From: a virus | IMG/VR virus record: IMGVR_UViG_3300035698_002505 | Coordinates: 1-37,926 of that record | DNA: 37,926 nt | Direction: 5' to 3' (one strand) | Shown: one piece after another, positions 8,523 through 29,505 of the stretch | Layout: every line of letters starts with the position of its first letter | Position numbering within the stretch: the stretch's first letter is position 1 | The notes under the pieces: model-generated | Told to the model about the DNA's origin: nothing | What the model saw: the letters and a program-made list of their open reading frames with translations, nothing else | Databases searched by the model: none | Made by a program: the position numbers and the translations under genes

Positions 8523-11189
8523 TTAACGTAATCCCAACGGGTTATTGTCCATAGTATCTATTGCCGCCTGATAAAATTTCCTGAGCTTACTCGTCAGTAG
8601 ACCAGGATCGATAGATGCCGCAGAGTGAGCTTCCGCAAACAACTCAACCGGATGAGTCGTAGCGTACCCAGACAAGCGAAGAGACTCAGACTCGCCTAGC
8701 CCACCTACTTTCCTAACGGCGGCTTGAATATCTAAAAATCCTAAACTGTCAATGTGGTGTCCTACTTCGTGGGCTACCGCAAACTCAAGAGCTTCGTCGG
8801 GAGATTTCGCAGCTTGCCAGACAAAGTTACGTTTGCCAATTGGCTCACCAGCAAAATCCTTAACTACCTTCTCTAATGAATGGCTTCGAGTTCCTTTCAA
8901 TCCTCCTTCAGCAATAGACAGCCTACCGCCGTTACTAGGAGAATACCCGAAGCCAGTAGACTCAACTCCCCCTCCTTCTCCTACAACCCTCACAGTCTTG
9001 ATAGCAAACTCCCTACCTCCTACACCAAGCGACTTTTCCAACGCTCTCTCTACCGCCTGGGCTTCTGAAACGCTCAGTCCAGTTAGGTCTACATCTTGAG
9101 CCAAGTTCTTTGCCTTGATCGATTGCTCTACAGAACGTACTGACAACTTGGGATCGGCTTTAGGCGTTGGTTTTGTAGTCGGCTTGGACTTTGGTTTGAC
9201 CTTCGGCGTAACGTCGTCGAGAATACTCTTAGGTCGCTTGCGAGCAATCTTCGTATCGGCTCCCGCCCACTTCGATATCTTCCGTTGGTCCGCTATCGAT
9301 CGCTTCGACCGCTTTGGTATCTCTGCCTTGAGAGACTTACCAATAGCTTCGTCAACGTCGCCCTTCGATCGTATCTGCCCCTTCTGACTCTCGCCTACGT
9401 TCGCGGGCTTGAACGCACAACGGCAATTACTAGATACGATCCCGTTTATCGAGTATAGTGAAGTCTCACTAGTCACATCGTAAACAGAAAGGGATTGAAC
9501 ATGCCTAAAGGTTACCTGTTTGACATCAATGAGTATCCCGCCGATAAGATTATCGAGTTGTACCTGGGAGGAGAGAGCCAGACTGCTGTCAAAAATGCTC
9601 TGGGACTTCCCGATGGGATGGTTCGACGAATTCTCAAGGCTCGATCTATCCCTATGAGAACTCAGGCCGACGCTAACCGGCTCACGATGAGCAAGCGAAC
9701 GAGCGAGGAGAATAGACTCAACGTTCAATCCGCTCACAATACCGTCAGAGGACGTACCCGCTCGTTTGAAGAACTGAGAAAGCAATCCACCACTATCCAG
9801 AGTCAGGGAATCGAAGGTGGCAACGTCTCCCCGCCGGAGAAGCGATTCTATGAATTGGCTACTTCTCTTGGTCTGTCGTTGACTCCCCAATACGCTATCG
9901 GCACCTACAATGCTGATTTTAGAATCGACGGACGCCCCATCACCGTGGAAATCTTCGGGGGACGCAACCGACTCCAGTACCAATCCTTTCTCGACTACTT
10001 CAATAAGCGACTCAAATACATCCGCAATCAGGGGTTCTCTCAGATACTGATTTGGTGTCTTTCCAAGTCTATCGTAGGGAGTGTTAACGAGACGATCAAA
10101 ATTTGTAATCTCTTTAGCGAAGACCCAACCACGCTGCGTAAGCAATACGTGATTACCAGTCACGGAAATCCGTCTTCCATCGGGCAAGGTAAGATCAACT
10201 ATCAATCCGGTATACTCCGCCGACATTATACCGACTAATCCGGGGGAGCAAATTCGCATCTCCCCTGTCACACAGTTCGGATGGCGAGGGATCATGCCGT
10301 GTCCCTCCGCTATCTTCAACACTACTTCGTCCATCGGCTGACAAAGTTGGCATACACGATCGTCTCCCGCCGTCTGCCACTCGACCATGACGCCTACTTC
10401 TTCGACGCCTAACTTTTCCATCGCGTCTAACTGACCTTCAGCGTGAGCTCGGATGATCTCCGTACGAGCCATCGTCAACGCTCGTTGCTTACCGATGCCG
10501 TCTACGTTCTTGGCTATCGCTCTCGCTATCTCGCGTGGGTTCTGCCCGCGTACTAGCCCGTCCGTAAGCGTACGCGAGAGGGAAGCTCCCATAGATTCGG
10601 TGACGCCTTTGAGGTCGGTATAGACTCGACTGGCGAGTAGCTTCGTCTTGGCTATCGTTTCGGGTTGGGCGAAGGCATCGCGTAGGAACTGATCCTTGGT
10701 TCCTTCATAGAAGTCTAGGTTAGCTTGCGTGGCTGGTTTGCGTACGTCGTCGAAAGCTCTACCGGCTCCCTTGCGATAGCCTTCGTCAATGTAGGCTTTC
10801 CAATACGCATCTTCGGTAGCACTCTCGACGGTTAGGATACCGGCTTGAACTTGTTGCTCGAGCCAAGTACGGAATCCAGCAACCTTCTCCGCATCCGATC
10901 GGAAGGCGAAGCGGGTATTGCGGGCGAATGGATTAGTACGTTGCTTCAAGCCGAACGCATCTTCCAGTACGATCAACCGTACGATCTTCGCCTTCAACGC
11001 CGCGAACCGTTTACGGAAGTCTGTCTGTATTTTTCGGCGTAGCGTTGCTGTCCGCGTCGGGTCCGTCTTCATCGGGTTGCGTGACGTTCGGTGCTTCGGC
11101 TTCTTCCGAGCGTTTGCTACCATCGCGTCCCAGTCGATCTTCGGAATGTAGCGACTTGTAGTAACCGTCGTCATCTTTAGTATCCCCAT
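8523..11189 (-). CDS. Mu-F-like head morphogenesis protein with intein and C-terminal metallopeptidase-like domain
   Basis: An uninterrupted 888-codon frame (numbering from ATG 11189; a second ATG lies at 11174, and the conserved region starts near KTDPTRTATLRRK, residue 41). Residues about 41-305 are a Mu-gpF-like minor head domain with ARTEIIRAHAEGQL, DDRVCQLC and IPRHPN. The expected HPNCRCAF motif is split: HPN is residues 303-305 and CRCAF resumes at 589. Residues 306-588 are an intein. The C-terminal part has a Lys/Pro linker, then a domain with AVAHEVGHHID (HEVGH 807-811) and ELFAEAHSA, a gluzincin-like metal site as in polyvalent metallopeptidase domains. Spliced product about 605 aa. 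Minor capsid protein acting in head assembly, perhaps ejected with DNA. Confidence 0.88.
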   Translation of the reverse strand: MGILKMTTVTTSRYIPKIDWDAMVANARKKPKHRTSRNPMKTDPTRTATLRRKIQTDFRKRFAALKAKIVRLIVLEDAFGLKQRTNPFARNTRFAFRSDAEKVAGFRTWLEQQVQAGILTVESATEDAYWKAYIDEGYRKGAGRAFDDVRKPATQANLDFYEGTKDQFLRDAFAQPETIAKTKLLASRVYTDLKGVTESMGASLSRTLTDGLVRGQNPREIARAIAKNVDGIGKQRALTMARTEIIRAHAEGQLDAMEKLGVEEVGVMVEWQTAGDDRVCQLCQPMDEVVLKIAEGHGMIPRHPNCVTGEMRICSPGLVGIMSAEYTGLIVDLTLPDGRRISVTGNHVLLTQRGWVFAKEITNFDRLVNTPYDRLGKTPNQYLREPLIADVFESLIEVVEKGLVLESVASPEDFHGDGASVDSKISIVGADSVLGSQRQTKRSSQFIESLLRRGDVATFDSLTLDSGGLLSQFFKRAGTSSDGIVSGLNVESILLARSLAHREPVSVGLSSHRDRSSLENSSNHPIGKSQSIFDSSLALSSQVQLDNLIGGILIDVKQVTFRHVQSLSVYDVTSETSLYSINGIVSSNCRCAFKPANVGESQKGQIRSKGDVDEAIGKSLKAEIPKRSKRSIADQRKISKWAGADTKIARKRPKSILDDVTPKVKPKSKPTTKPTPKADPKLSVRSVEQSIKAKNLAQDVDLTGLSVSEAQAVERALEKSLGVGGREFAIKTVRVVGEGGGVESTGFGYSPSNGGRLSIAEGGLKGTRSHSLEKVVKDFAGEPIGKRNFVWQAAKSPDEALEFAVAHEVGHHIDSLGFLDIQAAVRKVGGLGESESLRLSGYATTHPVELFAEAHSAASIDPGLLTSKLRKFYQAAIDTMDNNPLGLR
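9426..10274 (-). other. Intein within the Mu-F-like head protein
   Basis: Residues 306-588 of the host protein interrupt HPN|CRC exactly. The intein begins with Cys (CVTGEMRI, block A). It has a block B-like TGNHVLLTQRGWVFAKEI (T344, H347) and a block F/G-like end VYDVTSETSLYSINGIVSSN, and is followed by Cys+1. The terminal Asn is present, but the usual penultimate His is Ser. No LAGLIDADG or in-frame endonuclease motif is seen. The central region (about residues 375-545) is Ser/Leu/Asp-rich and low in recognisable structure. Nearly all of it is overlapped on the plus strand by a complete endonuclease gene. Excision would restore the capsid protein. Confidence 0.85.
9501..10238 (+). CDS. HTH + Vsr/EDxHD-like homing endonuclease, antisense within the intein
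   Basis: The 245-aa protein starts at ATG with AAAGGG 7 nt upstream (an in-frame TTG lies 6 nt earlier). Residues about 10-62 form a helix-turn-helix unit (PADKIIELYLGGESQTAVKN ... GMVRRILKARSIPMRTQADA). Residues about 110-190 look like a PD-(D/E)xK/Vsr-fold nuclease: PPEKRFYELATSLGLSLT (E113), YNADFRIDGRPITVEIFGG (D139, E150), then a basic helix and FSQILIWCLS. This matches the style of EDxHD homing endonucleases related to Vsr. It lies wholly inside the intein coding sequence but on the opposite strand, in exact codon register. It is one of only two convincing plus-strand genes and would drive intein homing into the HPN|CRC site. Confidence 0.85.
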   Translation: MPKGYLFDINEYPADKIIELYLGGESQTAVKNALGLPDGMVRRILKARSIPMRTQADANRLTMSKRTSEENRLNVQSAHNTVRGRTRSFEELRKQSTTIQSQGIEGGNVSPPEKRFYELATSLGLSLTPQYAIGTYNADFRIDGRPITVEIFGGRNRLQYQSFLDYFNKRLKYIRNQGFSQILIWCLSKSIVGSVNETIKICNLFSEDPTTLRKQYVITSHGNPSSIGQGKINYQSGILRRHYTD

Positions 11190-26505: not shown

Positions 26506-27339
26506 TTATCCTATATTCCAAAAGAGGGTATTGCCGTCGAGCGGATGTATGTCCATCCACCATCGGAACGTCTTCAAGTCATAGTAGGGATTACACGGCC
26601 ACGGCGGAGTTCCCCCTGGTCTCGCCGTATCTCGGTAGGCGTACCTCTCATCCACTAATGTAAGGTCAACCGAGTATCCCGACTGCTCTCGCACGTACCT
26701 TCTAACTTGGTCGTGGGAGCGGGAGTAGCCGAGATGCAGTATGAACTCTGGTCTATCGAATCTACGGAAATCGCAGAATCCCTTAACGACTCCCGCCGCT
26801 ATCGTCCCGCTACTAACCGGGATAATCACCCGATCAAATACCGTACCCGTTGTAGGAACCTCCTTCGCCGTTTCCGTTACCGACTCCGGGAGCTTCAAAG
26901 CGTTCGGCATCATATATCCGCCCCGAGATTCACAGAGCTTCTTCGATTGGTGAAAGAGGATTGCCGACCGACCGGCTGGAAGCGGATAGAGACCGGCTCC
27001 AAGTTCTTTCGCTTGTAGTTGAGCTTCTCGTGGCCCCGGCTCTCCCACGTAGTTCGGATAATAGTTCACGCACTTCTTACCGAGTATCTCGCACGCTCTC
27101 GCTACGGCGTGTCCGGCTTGAGAATGGTAGGTGTCGAGTACGCCGATGATATTCTCGGGGCGACTCTTTACGTGAGCGTAGACTCCCCGAGTCTTCGAGA
27201 ACGCTGGCCCAGGTCGAAGGCACGAGAGGTCTTCTCGCTTTACCCACAACCCGTATTCGGCTTGGTGCTCTTCGATCGGCGTACCTTCCCGGAGCATCCC
27301 CCCGGCTACGATCTTCCCTCGACTCCGTACGGCTACCAT
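26506..27339 (-). CDS. PLP-dependent enzyme, fold type II
   Basis: A 277-aa product from ATG 27339 (GGGAGAGGAC upstream), overlapping the previous stop. The N-terminus reads VKREDLSC, then AFSKTRG with the likely PLP lysine K49, a DTYHSQAGHAVARACEILGK segment as in tryptophan-synthase-beta/cysteine-synthase folds, and a phosphate-binding VSSGTIAAGV loop (176-183). Similar in layout to D-cysteine desulfhydrase or ACC-deaminase relatives. In hypermodifying phages a PLP enzyme decarboxylates or remodels the amino acid attached to the base. That role is inferred from its neighbours. Confidence 0.75.
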   Translation of the reverse strand: MVAVRSRGKIVAGGMLREGTPIEEHQAEYGLWVKREDLSCLRPGPAFSKTRGVYAHVKSRPENIIGVLDTYHSQAGHAVARACEILGKKCVNYYPNYVGEPGPREAQLQAKELGAGLYPLPAGRSAILFHQSKKLCESRGGYMMPNALKLPESVTETAKEVPTTGTVFDRVIIPVSSGTIAAGVVKGFCDFRRFDRPEFILHLGYSRSHDQVRRYVREQSGYSVDLTLVDERYAYRDTARPGGTPPWPCNPYYDLKTFRWWMDIHPLDGNTLFWNIG

Positions 27340-28139
27340 AGGTGTCCTCTCCCCGCTCGTAAGAGCTTCTGCGACGTAGTACACCGCGAGAACCTTAGAA
27401 GCCCCCTACGGCACGCTCGTATGTCTTCTCCGGCTTCGTAGTGCCCCCCTAACGACGACTTCCACTTGCAGAGGATCGTCTCCGCTTCCTGCCCGTTTAT
27501 CGCTCGCTCGTATCTCGGAGGGGCTAGATAGTCGCCTAGGCGTGCGAGGATCGCCCGTACGGCTCTTTCCGACGTATCTGAGGGGTATTCGCCGTCCTTC
27601 TCCCCGGAGGCTCTCTCGTAGCGATCGTAGGCGATTTCCGCCCCCTTCTTCGGGCTATCGAACAAGAATATATCGCTTGTAGAGAAGTCTACCCGAAGTA
27701 AGTTGAGCCGCTCTAACATATCAGCGACTTTGAACGCTATCCAAGGTCCGAAGCCTACCCACTTCTTCACGCGATCCATCACGACTTCGGCTGAGACGGC
27801 TCCCCGGTTCCCTCCGTCTCGAAGACGAAAGAACAGGTCACCGACTCCCCGAGCCGCTAGGTACTCAACCGACTTCCGAGCGTTCTCTCCCCGGAAGTGT
27901 CTACGCTCGGTACAACGCGGATACTCATTGGAACCGGCAGCTAGTCGAAACCGATTCCAGTACTCGTAGGGATGATCCGTAATCCACGAAGCCGTACCGA
28001 CATGGTAGAAGCACCAGTAAGCGAGGAGCCAACTCTCTAATTCGTTTGGCCCCCATTCGGCTTCGTGGAGTAGGACGTAGACTGGATCAAGATCGTTGGT
28101 CTCTAGTAGCTCTCCGCCGAACTCAAACAGGTTGCTCAT
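27333..28139 (-). CDS. HhH-type amino-acid:DNA transferase candidate (alpha-GPT-pyrophosphorylase-like)
   Basis: The 268-aa helical protein has a WGPNELESWLLAYWCFYHVG opening, DHPYEYWNRFRLAAG, a RHFRGENARKSVEYLAARGV helix, and a helix-hairpin-helix-like VKKWVGFGPWIAFKVADMLE, then VDFSTSDIFLFDSPKKGAEI. This pattern resembles the HhH-GPD-derived transferases that install amino acids on phosphorylated 5-hydroxymethyl-uracil in DNA (ViI/SP10/phiW-14 pathway families described by comparative genomics). It overlaps the PLP and radical SAM genes at both ends. The family assignment is from memory of pattern; substrate unknown. Confidence 0.6.
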   Translation of the reverse strand: MSNLFEFGGELLETNDLDPVYVLLHEAEWGPNELESWLLAYWCFYHVGTASWITDHPYEYWNRFRLAAGSNEYPRCTERRHFRGENARKSVEYLAARGVGDLFFRLRDGGNRGAVSAEVVMDRVKKWVGFGPWIAFKVADMLERLNLLRVDFSTSDIFLFDSPKKGAEIAYDRYERASGEKDGEYPSDTSERAVRAILARLGDYLAPPRYERAINGQEAETILCKWKSSLGGHYEAGEDIRACRRGLLRFSRCTTSQKLLRAGRGHLW

Positions 28140-29505
28140 GGAACGGCACTTTCAAGTCTACGAGTTGGAGAGCCTTCGCTTGTCCGGCTAACTCGTCGCC
28201 GCATCTCGGCTCGCCGTTATTCTCCGAAGCACAATATAGACAACCGCTTGGAGGACACTCTTCGATCGGCTGAAACATATCGCCTTCGCTAGATCGTTCG
28301 TACACCGGAACTCTCTGGCCGTGGCATTGGTCTGCCGTCGTATACTTTCGACCGATACTCACGCCCGTCTTATTGATGATGTCTCCAACTTCGTTTCTCT
28401 CGTACTCGTACTCGTAGCAAGTCGCGTAGGTGAGTCCGTACTTCCGAGCGTAGGTGGAGTAGAGCTTGTGAGCCTTCATCCGGTAGCTCTCGACGATCGT
28501 ACGTTGTCCGCCGATATTCTCGGTGAAGAGTTCTTCAAAGGCTCTCCCCCTATCGCCGAACCGTCGTATCAAACGCTCGGCCATCGCGGGAGCCCAAGAG
28601 TAACCGGCTTCAACGAACTTAACGATGACGTGATCGGCTCCCGCATCGGCTAACATCTTGAAGAGCTTAACAATCTGATCGTTCGACGTTATACCTGGCA
28701 TGATCGGATTACACTGGATGGAGACGTAGATACCGTTACGCTTGAGCCGCGTGATATCTCGCAGATGTCCGTCCAGAGATAGTGCCCCCGGTGAGAGTCG
28801 TCTCCAGTCTTCTGCGTCGGGAGTATTGAGAGACTTCTGAGCGTAGCTATGGGGATTCTGCTTCATCAGATCGATAGCCCATCTCGGATATCGAAGGCGA
28901 CTCAAGAAGAAGATCGGAAGACCGACGGCCACGAACTCTTTAGCGGCTTCTTCGGTGTTATGATAATACTCTTCGAGCGGGGTGAACGGATCGGTGAACG
29001 ACGAGAAGTAACCAGCAGCGGCTCGGTTCATTGAACTAAGCTGCTCCTTGATTTGTTCTCCGTAGTTCTCCGGTACGGTAATCAATCCTGTACCTCGATA
29101 GCCCCGGAAGCCGGAGTTGATATAACAGAACGCACAACCGACTGCGCACCAACCTCCGTACGGTTCCGTTAAGACGGCTTCGCTGAAACAAGGTCTCGCC
29201 CGTACTCCCGGCGACTCGTGAAGACTTTTGTACCAGCCCTGGAGTTTCTTCGCGTTCTTAATCCGCATGTGGGGATACGGTTCCAGGTACGCCGTAATTG
29301 ACTTCTTGTTATCCTCCTTCGCGTTACGGGTCATCCCAATCTTCATATCGCGGACTTTGATTCTACGTCCGGTCAACTCGTCCTTGATCGTTCGGATCGG
29401 TCCTAGATCGTCGAACGGTTCTGGCCGCATAAAATACTCGTACTTTTCGTACGCGGTATTGATATCGTCGCCTACGTCCTTAACCAACCATGCGTCCTGT
29501 TCCAT
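28123..29505 (-). CDS. Radical SAM enzyme
   Basis: The 460-aa protein has the cluster motif C120-A-V-G-C124-A-F-C127-Y, a CxxxCxxC radical SAM signature. It is followed by GYFSSFTDPFTPLEEYYHNT, strand GLPIFFLSRLRYP, a SLDGHLRDITRLKRNGIYVS block and NPIMPGITSNDQIVKLFKM. The C-terminus has extra cysteines (CPPSGCLYCASE ... CGDEL) that may hold a second cluster. In hypermodifying phages a radical SAM isomerase rearranges the amino-acyl group on the base. Here it lies between the kinase-like and HhH transferase-like genes. Confidence 0.82.
   Translation of the reverse strand: MEQDAWLVKDVGDDINTAYEKYEYFMRPEPFDDLGPIRTIKDELTGRRIKVRDMKIGMTRNAKEDNKKSITAYLEPYPHMRIKNAKKLQGWYKSLHESPGVRARPCFSEAVLTEPYGGWCAVGCAFCYINSGFRGYRGTGLITVPENYGEQIKEQLSSMNRAAAGYFSSFTDPFTPLEEYYHNTEEAAKEFVAVGLPIFFLSRLRYPRWAIDLMKQNPHSYAQKSLNTPDAEDWRRLSPGALSLDGHLRDITRLKRNGIYVSIQCNPIMPGITSNDQIVKLFKMLADAGADHVIVKFVEAGYSWAPAMAERLIRRFGDRGRAFEELFTENIGGQRTIVESYRMKAHKLYSTYARKYGLTYATCYEYEYERNEVGDIINKTGVSIGRKYTTADQCHGQRVPVYERSSEGDMFQPIEECPPSGCLYCASENNGEPRCGDELAGQAKALQLVDLKVPFHEQPV

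Follow-up and report, generated by a model that had tools for sequence, protein, structure and literature searches.

In standard large inteins the homing endonuclease, of the LAGLIDADG or HNH type, is an in-frame domain of the protein that is spliced out, and to our knowledge endonucleases of the EDxHD type occur free-standing or in intron and split-gene settings, not antisense inside an intein. Here we describe a stretch of 37,926 bp (the whole of it is called the window below) from the IMG/VR virus record IMGVR_UViG_3300035698_002505, in which the gene of a MuF-like minor head protein is interrupted by an intein that holds a nuclease-like gene on its opposite strand. The two very probably form a composite mobile element that uses both strands for coding, with a splicing intein in sense and a separate homing endonuclease in antisense. 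The analysis was wholly computational, and expression, splicing, cleavage and homing are what we infer from it.

Like standard inteins, the one at our locus has two splicing halves, with Cys1, block B, block F, a terminal Asn and Cys+1, and occupies a specific site of a conserved gene, at which relatives are polymorphic; unlike them, it leaves the nuclease to a separate gene, encoded by the opposite strand of these codons. With the EDxHD-type enzymes I-Bth0305I and Vsr it has in common the catalytic fold, the conserved acidic residues and an N-terminal DNA-binding part, but here the gene lies antisense in an intein and the window copy lacks a near-invariant His. The ShiLan domain (Arsenault, Gosselin and Gogarten 2025, PMC11855218) is likewise a stop-free phage insertion in the host frame with an endonuclease hidden in another frame. 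However, that endonuclease is of the HNH type and is reported in the third frame of a methylase, with no mention of an antisense frame, no splicing domains are detectable and the insert is not an intein. Nuclear group I introns in eukaryotic ribosomal DNA carry antisense homing endonuclease genes (Lian et al. 2022, PMC9548176), and there too the gene is antisense to the splicing element mobilised, but that element is RNA and the gene occupies a peripheral RNA segment, with no shared protein-coding codons. The available parts of reports on Jerseyvirus and Guernseyvirinae (PMC8425127) and of the Snoke record mention the intein and not the antisense gene. An earlier reading of the window from its letters alone (the sequence-only reading) had stated that no intein of this kind was known; in open-access full texts the only antisense endonuclease genes encountered were those of group I introns and none was found in an intein, and as subscription papers and preprints lay largely outside this search an earlier description is possible there.

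An intein and a nuclease gene in the same codons

The main features of the window are the following:

8523-11189, minus strand: precursor of the MuF-like minor head protein, 888 amino acids (Pfam Phage_Mu_F, E 4.9e-11; several PHROG head-morphogenesis families)
9426-10274, minus strand: intein of 283 amino acids at HPN/CRC, with Cys1, terminal Asn and Cys+1 (sequence motifs, Pfam)
10068-10274, minus strand: N-terminal splicing half, intein residues 1-69, with the TGNH block B (AlphaFold block means 89-96 over residues 1-60)
9558-10067, minus strand: intein linker, residues 70-239, mostly predicted disordered (predicted local distance difference test, pLDDT, <50 nearly throughout residues 126-226)
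9936-9959, minus strand: sense motif PEDFHGDG, intein residues 106-113, opposite the nuclease catalytic strand and conserved in both frames
9426-9557, minus strand: C-terminal splicing half, intein residues 240-283, with block F and the terminal Asn (AlphaFold block means 72-93)
9501-10238, plus strand: antisense nuclease gene, 245 amino acids, inside the intein (ATG start, open frame, codon register shared with the intein)
9488-9493, plus strand: Shine-Dalgarno-like AAAGGG, 7 nt before the ATG at 9501 (direct reading)
9540-9641, plus strand: helix-turn-helix region, nuclease residues 14-47 (predicted helices 14-22, 27-34 and 40-47)
9837-9971, plus strand: Vsr/EDxHD-like catalytic core with E113, N137, D139 and E150, and R157 (fold match, conservation)

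The minus-strand frame from 8523 to 11189 is uninterrupted, and its Pfam matches are Phage_Mu_F, above the Pfam cut-off, and Intein_splicing, in agreement with the MuF frame split at HPN/CRC by an intein that the sequence-only reading had proposed. The intein begins with CVTGEM and ends with IVSSN followed by C, between the flanks HPN and CRC, and it was counted as an intein by its motifs: C1, T39-N41-H42 of the TGNH block B, the block F VYDVTSE, and SSN, ending in N283, before Cys+1. Once the intein is removed HPNCRC, the HPxCxC motif that follows the Phage_Mu_F domain, is re-formed at the junction, and the product after predicted splicing has 605 amino acids. Cys1 is kept in 61/62 relatives and Pfam Intein_splicing matches all 47 family inteins at E <= 0.1, the window falling below the curated cut-off. 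Invariant among these 47 are C1, T39, N41, H42, T46 and G49 in the N-terminal half and V264 and N283 in the C-terminal half. In the AlphaFold model confidence is high over residues 1-60 and 250-283, that is, the splicing halves alone fold, which fits the proposed mini-intein with an antisense nuclease inside; on this model the linker is the sense shadow of the nuclease gene.

The nuclease codons are the exact reverse complements of intein codons, with shared codon boundaries, and the gene has been correctly read as complete: it opens with an ATG behind the ribosome-binding-site-like AAAGGG, stays open and is contained in the intein. Modelled with 47 sequences, its protein reached a pLDDT of 87.5 and a predicted template modelling score of 0.73, and only the first three residues and the last 20, opposite block B, were unfolded. 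The top Foldseek match was the catalytic domain of the homing endonuclease I-Bth0305I, and VIA gave Z scores of 10.8 to I-Bth0305I (3r3p), 10.6 to Vsr (1cw0), over 95-110 residues, and 10.4 to 3hrl, placing the catalytic domain in the Vsr-type fold. By sequence, the family profile found 3r3p (the I-Bth0305I domain) at E 1.1e-3 and 3hrl at E 6e-5; Pfam REase_MTES_1575 was found in 37/47 members and single helix-turn-helix families in up to 23/47. Among 174 members D139 is kept in all, E113, N137 and E150 in 173 each, position 170 (R170) is R or K throughout, and a W-H pair is typical. The helix-turn-helix and Vsr/EDxHD-like core expected from the letters alone are thus present in fold and matches, with the difference that the active-site histidine, found in the family as a whole, is absent from the window copy, which we term EDxHD-like only, as this His is replaced by R157. 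The window keeps E113, D139 and E150, conserved acidic residues of the metal-binding kind that may correspond to the E and D in EDxHD. On conservation and predicted structure, we hold with confidence that the antisense family is nuclease-like.

Selection acts on both strands

In an antisense register with shared codon boundaries, homology of one frame is mirrored in the other, and similarity searches by themselves cannot tell which frame is real. In the first locus set, which comprised 79 loci (the window and 78 relatives; L001, L036, L063, L179 and so on are labels of relatives' loci in the comparison set), the antisense frame had no internal stop in 79/79 and the sense frame was open in 78/79. 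Over 61 non-redundant loci, with the expectation taken from the extein codon usage of each locus, 0 antisense stops were seen against about 303 expected, a joint figure that is somewhat conditioned, as the relatives were chosen by similarity. For the window the chance of an open antisense frame, given its extein codon usage, is 4e-9, and this value is free of such bias because the window was the query. The remaining four overlapping frames were open in just 2/244 tests. Non-conservation of the plus-strand frame in homologues, which the sequence-only reading had named as evidence that would speak against it, was checked for, and both frames are conserved. Here a stop can appear in one frame only where the other has TTA, CTA or TCA (Leu/Ser), and both frames can therefore stay open by synonymous choice.

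The distribution of changes over codon positions points in the same direction. In the exteins differences concentrate at sense position 3, the usual pattern for a gene, whereas in the overlap they concentrate at sense position 1, the wobble position of the nuclease. The counts at sense positions 1, 2 and 3 were 42, 7 and 28 in the overlap versus 23, 24 and 72 in the exteins for the Gordonia phages Fosterous and Angelicage (L063/L075), 74, 17 and 38 versus 42, 35 and 71 for L045/L036, and 68, 17 and 34 versus 46, 34 and 161 for L077/L073. Within the overlap nuclease-synonymous changes equalled or exceeded sense-synonymous ones in every reported pair, usually by far, with ties in two pairs among the most distant, and the opposite held in the exteins; between the window and L079 there were 54 nuclease-synonymous and 29 sense-synonymous changes. 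Mapped along the nuclease, wobble freedom extends from residue 1 to about 195 and sense constraint covers residues of about 196-245, opposite block B. These rates indicate that the antisense frame is under purifying selection at the protein level.

The sense motif PEDFHGDG is a special case, since its residues F109, H110, G111, D112 and G113 are invariant across the 47 inteins, unlike the surrounding linker. In 64 sequences sense F and G were kept in 62 each, H in 60 and D in 61, and the E of the opposite nuclease in all 64; read antisense, P-E-D-F-H-G-D-G faces the catalytic strand P-V-A-V-E-I-F-G. Both proteins are constrained within these eight codons, because the nuclease wobble positions are frozen while variation falls at sense-synonymous sites. 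Conservation owed to a site at the DNA level was considered and is unlikely, as the variation tracks sense-synonymous positions.

Start signals of the nuclease gene

Containment of starts and stops was counted in 62 relatives. The nuclease gene ends within the intein in 59/62, often at intein codon 2, and in 45/62 the codon of the residue preceding block F, His (CAT 35, CAC 7) or Gln (CAA 3), yields the start codon as its reverse complement. A Shine-Dalgarno match is additionally present in 34 relatives. In the relatives GGAGGT inside block F takes this role; on the opposite strand the DNA of block F H-V-Y-N-L-Q typically reads TTGGAGGTTGTANACATG. The start in the window differs slightly, lying further in than the block F start of the relatives, with its own AAAGGG. 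Furthermore, the block F Leu codon is CTC in 40/52 cases versus 28% in exteins (p 1e-12), and the His codons CAT and CAC stand at 35:7 versus 116:284 in exteins (p 7e-12). These biases in block F relative to the exteins show selection on the start and Shine-Dalgarno sequence of the nuclease, and in most relatives HVYNLQ doubles as both signals. Upstream of the nuclease one further match was seen:

9431-9459, plus strand: weak promoter-like match TAGATA-17-TATAGT (9/12)

A conserved promoter for the nuclease was dropped as a candidate, this match being weak.

A second nuclease family antisense in an intein at the same site

A different intein from Gordonia phages, chosen as a negative control, proved to be a second positive case:

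L179:2371-3195: Nordenberg-type intein at the same MuF site (Gordonia phage Nordenberg; also Lennon, Sitar, Thing3, Barsten and SchottB)
L179:2482-3072, minus strand: antisense LAGLIDADG-like endonuclease in the Nordenberg intein (strong antisense selection)

Its antisense register frame encodes a protein of 196 amino acids (MKLDPVAAAYVAAFIDGEG...), which resembles free-standing phage endonucleases (Cyanophage PP, 32% over 102 amino acids, E 2e-6; Caulobacter phages, E 8e-6) and the LAGLIDADG enzyme I-MsoI (E 0.0013), with a sub-threshold match to Pfam LAGLIDADG_3. Between Nordenberg and Barsten, the 62 differing codons of the overlap comprise 47 nuclease-synonymous and 7 sense-synonymous ones, whereas the 64 of the exteins comprise 53 sense-synonymous and 8 antisense-synonymous ones and the 43 in the rest of the intein 24 and 1, respectively. 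Relatives of this nuclease were not found in viral contigs with the single query. The sequences indicate that the architecture has evolved at least twice, because an unrelated nuclease family lies antisense in an intein at the identical site, and both independent cases may share this register because both frames are easily kept open in it. Mobile inteins coded in both directions are probably recurrent, with EDxHD-like and LAGLIDADG-like enzymes each antisense at one MuF site, selection on both strands, a triple use of block F (splicing motif, Shine-Dalgarno sequence, start codon) and a double motif of eight codons. As a separate observation, PEDFHGDG is absent from the Nordenberg-type intein.

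Distribution and mobility

The intein with its antisense nuclease was found in at least 497 viral contigs, more than 100 phage records and 18 loci of bacterial genomes. By tblastn, 85 phage records matched the intein query and 117 the antisense protein query, the latter matches lying antisense in genes mostly annotated as minor head or head morphogenesis proteins. Viral contigs gave no match when searched with the single window nuclease and hundreds when searched with the family alignment. The host gene was always of the MuF type where checked; other host genes were considered for ten loci that failed the MuF extein profile, and 10/10 matched MuF or head-morphogenesis families (Pfam, PHROG).

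Relatives show exact, frame-preserving insertion. The MuF genes of Gordonia Vividuovirus, with flanks more than 95% identical, have three alleles at one bond: empty in Galadriel (HEVV/NCRC), a 316-amino-acid intein in Fosterous and Angelicage, and a different one of 275 amino acids in Nordenberg and Lennon. Likewise, among Salmonella phages the site is empty in Shemara and St162 and holds 272 residues in PhiSTP2 and TS6. Additionally, L042 and L039 have nearly identical extein proteins and nucleases just 58% identical, and in L103/L108 the intein is intact and the nuclease frame decayed, its matched stretch being broken by a stop at codon 105. These allele and decay data have the pattern of homing with decay, as judged from the genomes compared. 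Two relatives, in L072 (Acinetobacter phage BUCT629) and L138, are free-standing and lie immediately behind an intein-less MuF gene, in convergent orientation; that gene ends near its HPxC or MCKC motif, just past the usual insertion motif:

L072:2776-3711 and L138:3216-4181, strand opposite to MuF: free-standing nuclease relatives, whose sense register holds stops

They stand on two separate branches among nested relatives, and may either have escaped from inteins or be the source of the nested forms; the placement fits escape, in a tree that is unrooted and poorly supported.

A model of movement and its alternatives

We propose that the sense-strand intein, with its N- and C-terminal splicing halves and largely unstructured linker, would remove itself from the MuF head protein, and that the antisense strand of the same codons would encode a separate homing endonuclease with a helix-turn-helix part and a Vsr/EDxHD-type catalytic domain. 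This enzyme would not leave with the intein by splicing but would be translated from a separate antisense transcript with its own ribosome-binding site, and could cut the intein-less MuF allele near the HPN/CRC codons during co-infection, after which repair would copy intein and nuclease gene together into the cut allele. The two frames, selection on both, the nuclease fold, the containment, the selection on start and Shine-Dalgarno sequence and the presence or absence at the same site are computed observations. Several points weigh against this model. The penultimate residue of an intein is usually His, and in the window it is Ser; Foldseek E-values for the whole nuclease model were modest (best 3e-3); and the promoter-like match is suggestive only, because 4 such sites occur in the region versus 1.9 expected. 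In addition, the window has R157 (N156-R157) where 156/174 relatives carry His, and L001 and L079, its nearest kin and sister sequences in the nuclease tree (support 97; tree unrooted), likewise lack the W-H pair.

With the near-invariant His absent from all three, the activity of the window copy and its clade is uncertain, and the nuclease family could be real with the window copy inactive or decaying while the intein persists as a splicing element, as the decayed nucleases with intact inteins in L103/L108 would suggest. However, the window frame is open over 245 codons, which is hard to expect by chance, E113, N137, D139, E150 and R170 are kept, and the clade retains its excess of nuclease-synonymous change against L079, so that we consider this reading unlikely, although it deserves to be taken seriously. 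The more radical alternative, that the plus-strand frame is a product of chance or a mirror artefact in which a conserved sense protein yields an open, conserved-looking antisense frame, could appeal to a register in which antisense stops are easily avoided and to tblastn similarity in both frames. Against it, it is the nuclease wobble positions that vary most, the antisense product folds and matches known nucleases while the sense linker does not fold, none of the 303 expected stops occurs, and free-standing relatives with sense stops exist. Stop statistics, codon-position rates and the confident nuclease fold exclude a chance origin, and the same evidence rules out mirror homology, leaving this alternative with hardly any credence. 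Finally, a helix-turn-helix nuclease could attack rival phages, and the two free-standing copies beside MuF could be exclusion genes, which would suit a role in regulating the head operon or excluding competing phages instead of homing; but three observations all fit homing: in almost every relative the gene starts and stops inside the intein, the alleles are polymorphic at a single exact site, and another homing-type nuclease, unrelated to the first, occupies the same position. We regard another role as quite improbable.

The composite mobile element that we favour would mean that the nuclease of an intein need not belong to the spliced protein, the two genes being separated without a longer element. 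It would also be a clear example from nature of antisense double coding over a long stretch, about 245 codons with two conserved products, retained in dozens of phage lineages. An antisense transcript is predicted for the head operon of cultivable phages such as Gordonia Vividuovirus and the Salmonella and Escherichia Guernseyvirinae.

Annotation and other genes of the window

The 602-position 'head protein' profile PHROG 15127 probably models intein-containing precursors and not a plain head protein family, because its match runs across MuF and intein together. A large endonuclease family without annotation would be hidden in PHROG 15127 and in proteins labelled MuF or minor head. The C-terminal part of MuF (8739-8807, minus strand) has a zinc-metallopeptidase-like motif, AHEVGHH, with a weak NCBIfam match, and because of this motif the head protein of the window may be a MuF-protease fusion. 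The window also codes for head, portal, DNA polymerase, thymidylate synthase and methylase functions, and those of these genes that were identified all lie on the minus strand. A second intein was looked for in the thymidylate synthase of the window and none was seen. Near this gene lie those for a pyridoxal phosphate (PLP)-dependent enzyme (PALP) and a radical-SAM-like protein (26506-27384 and 28123-29505, minus strand), an unusual metabolic set.

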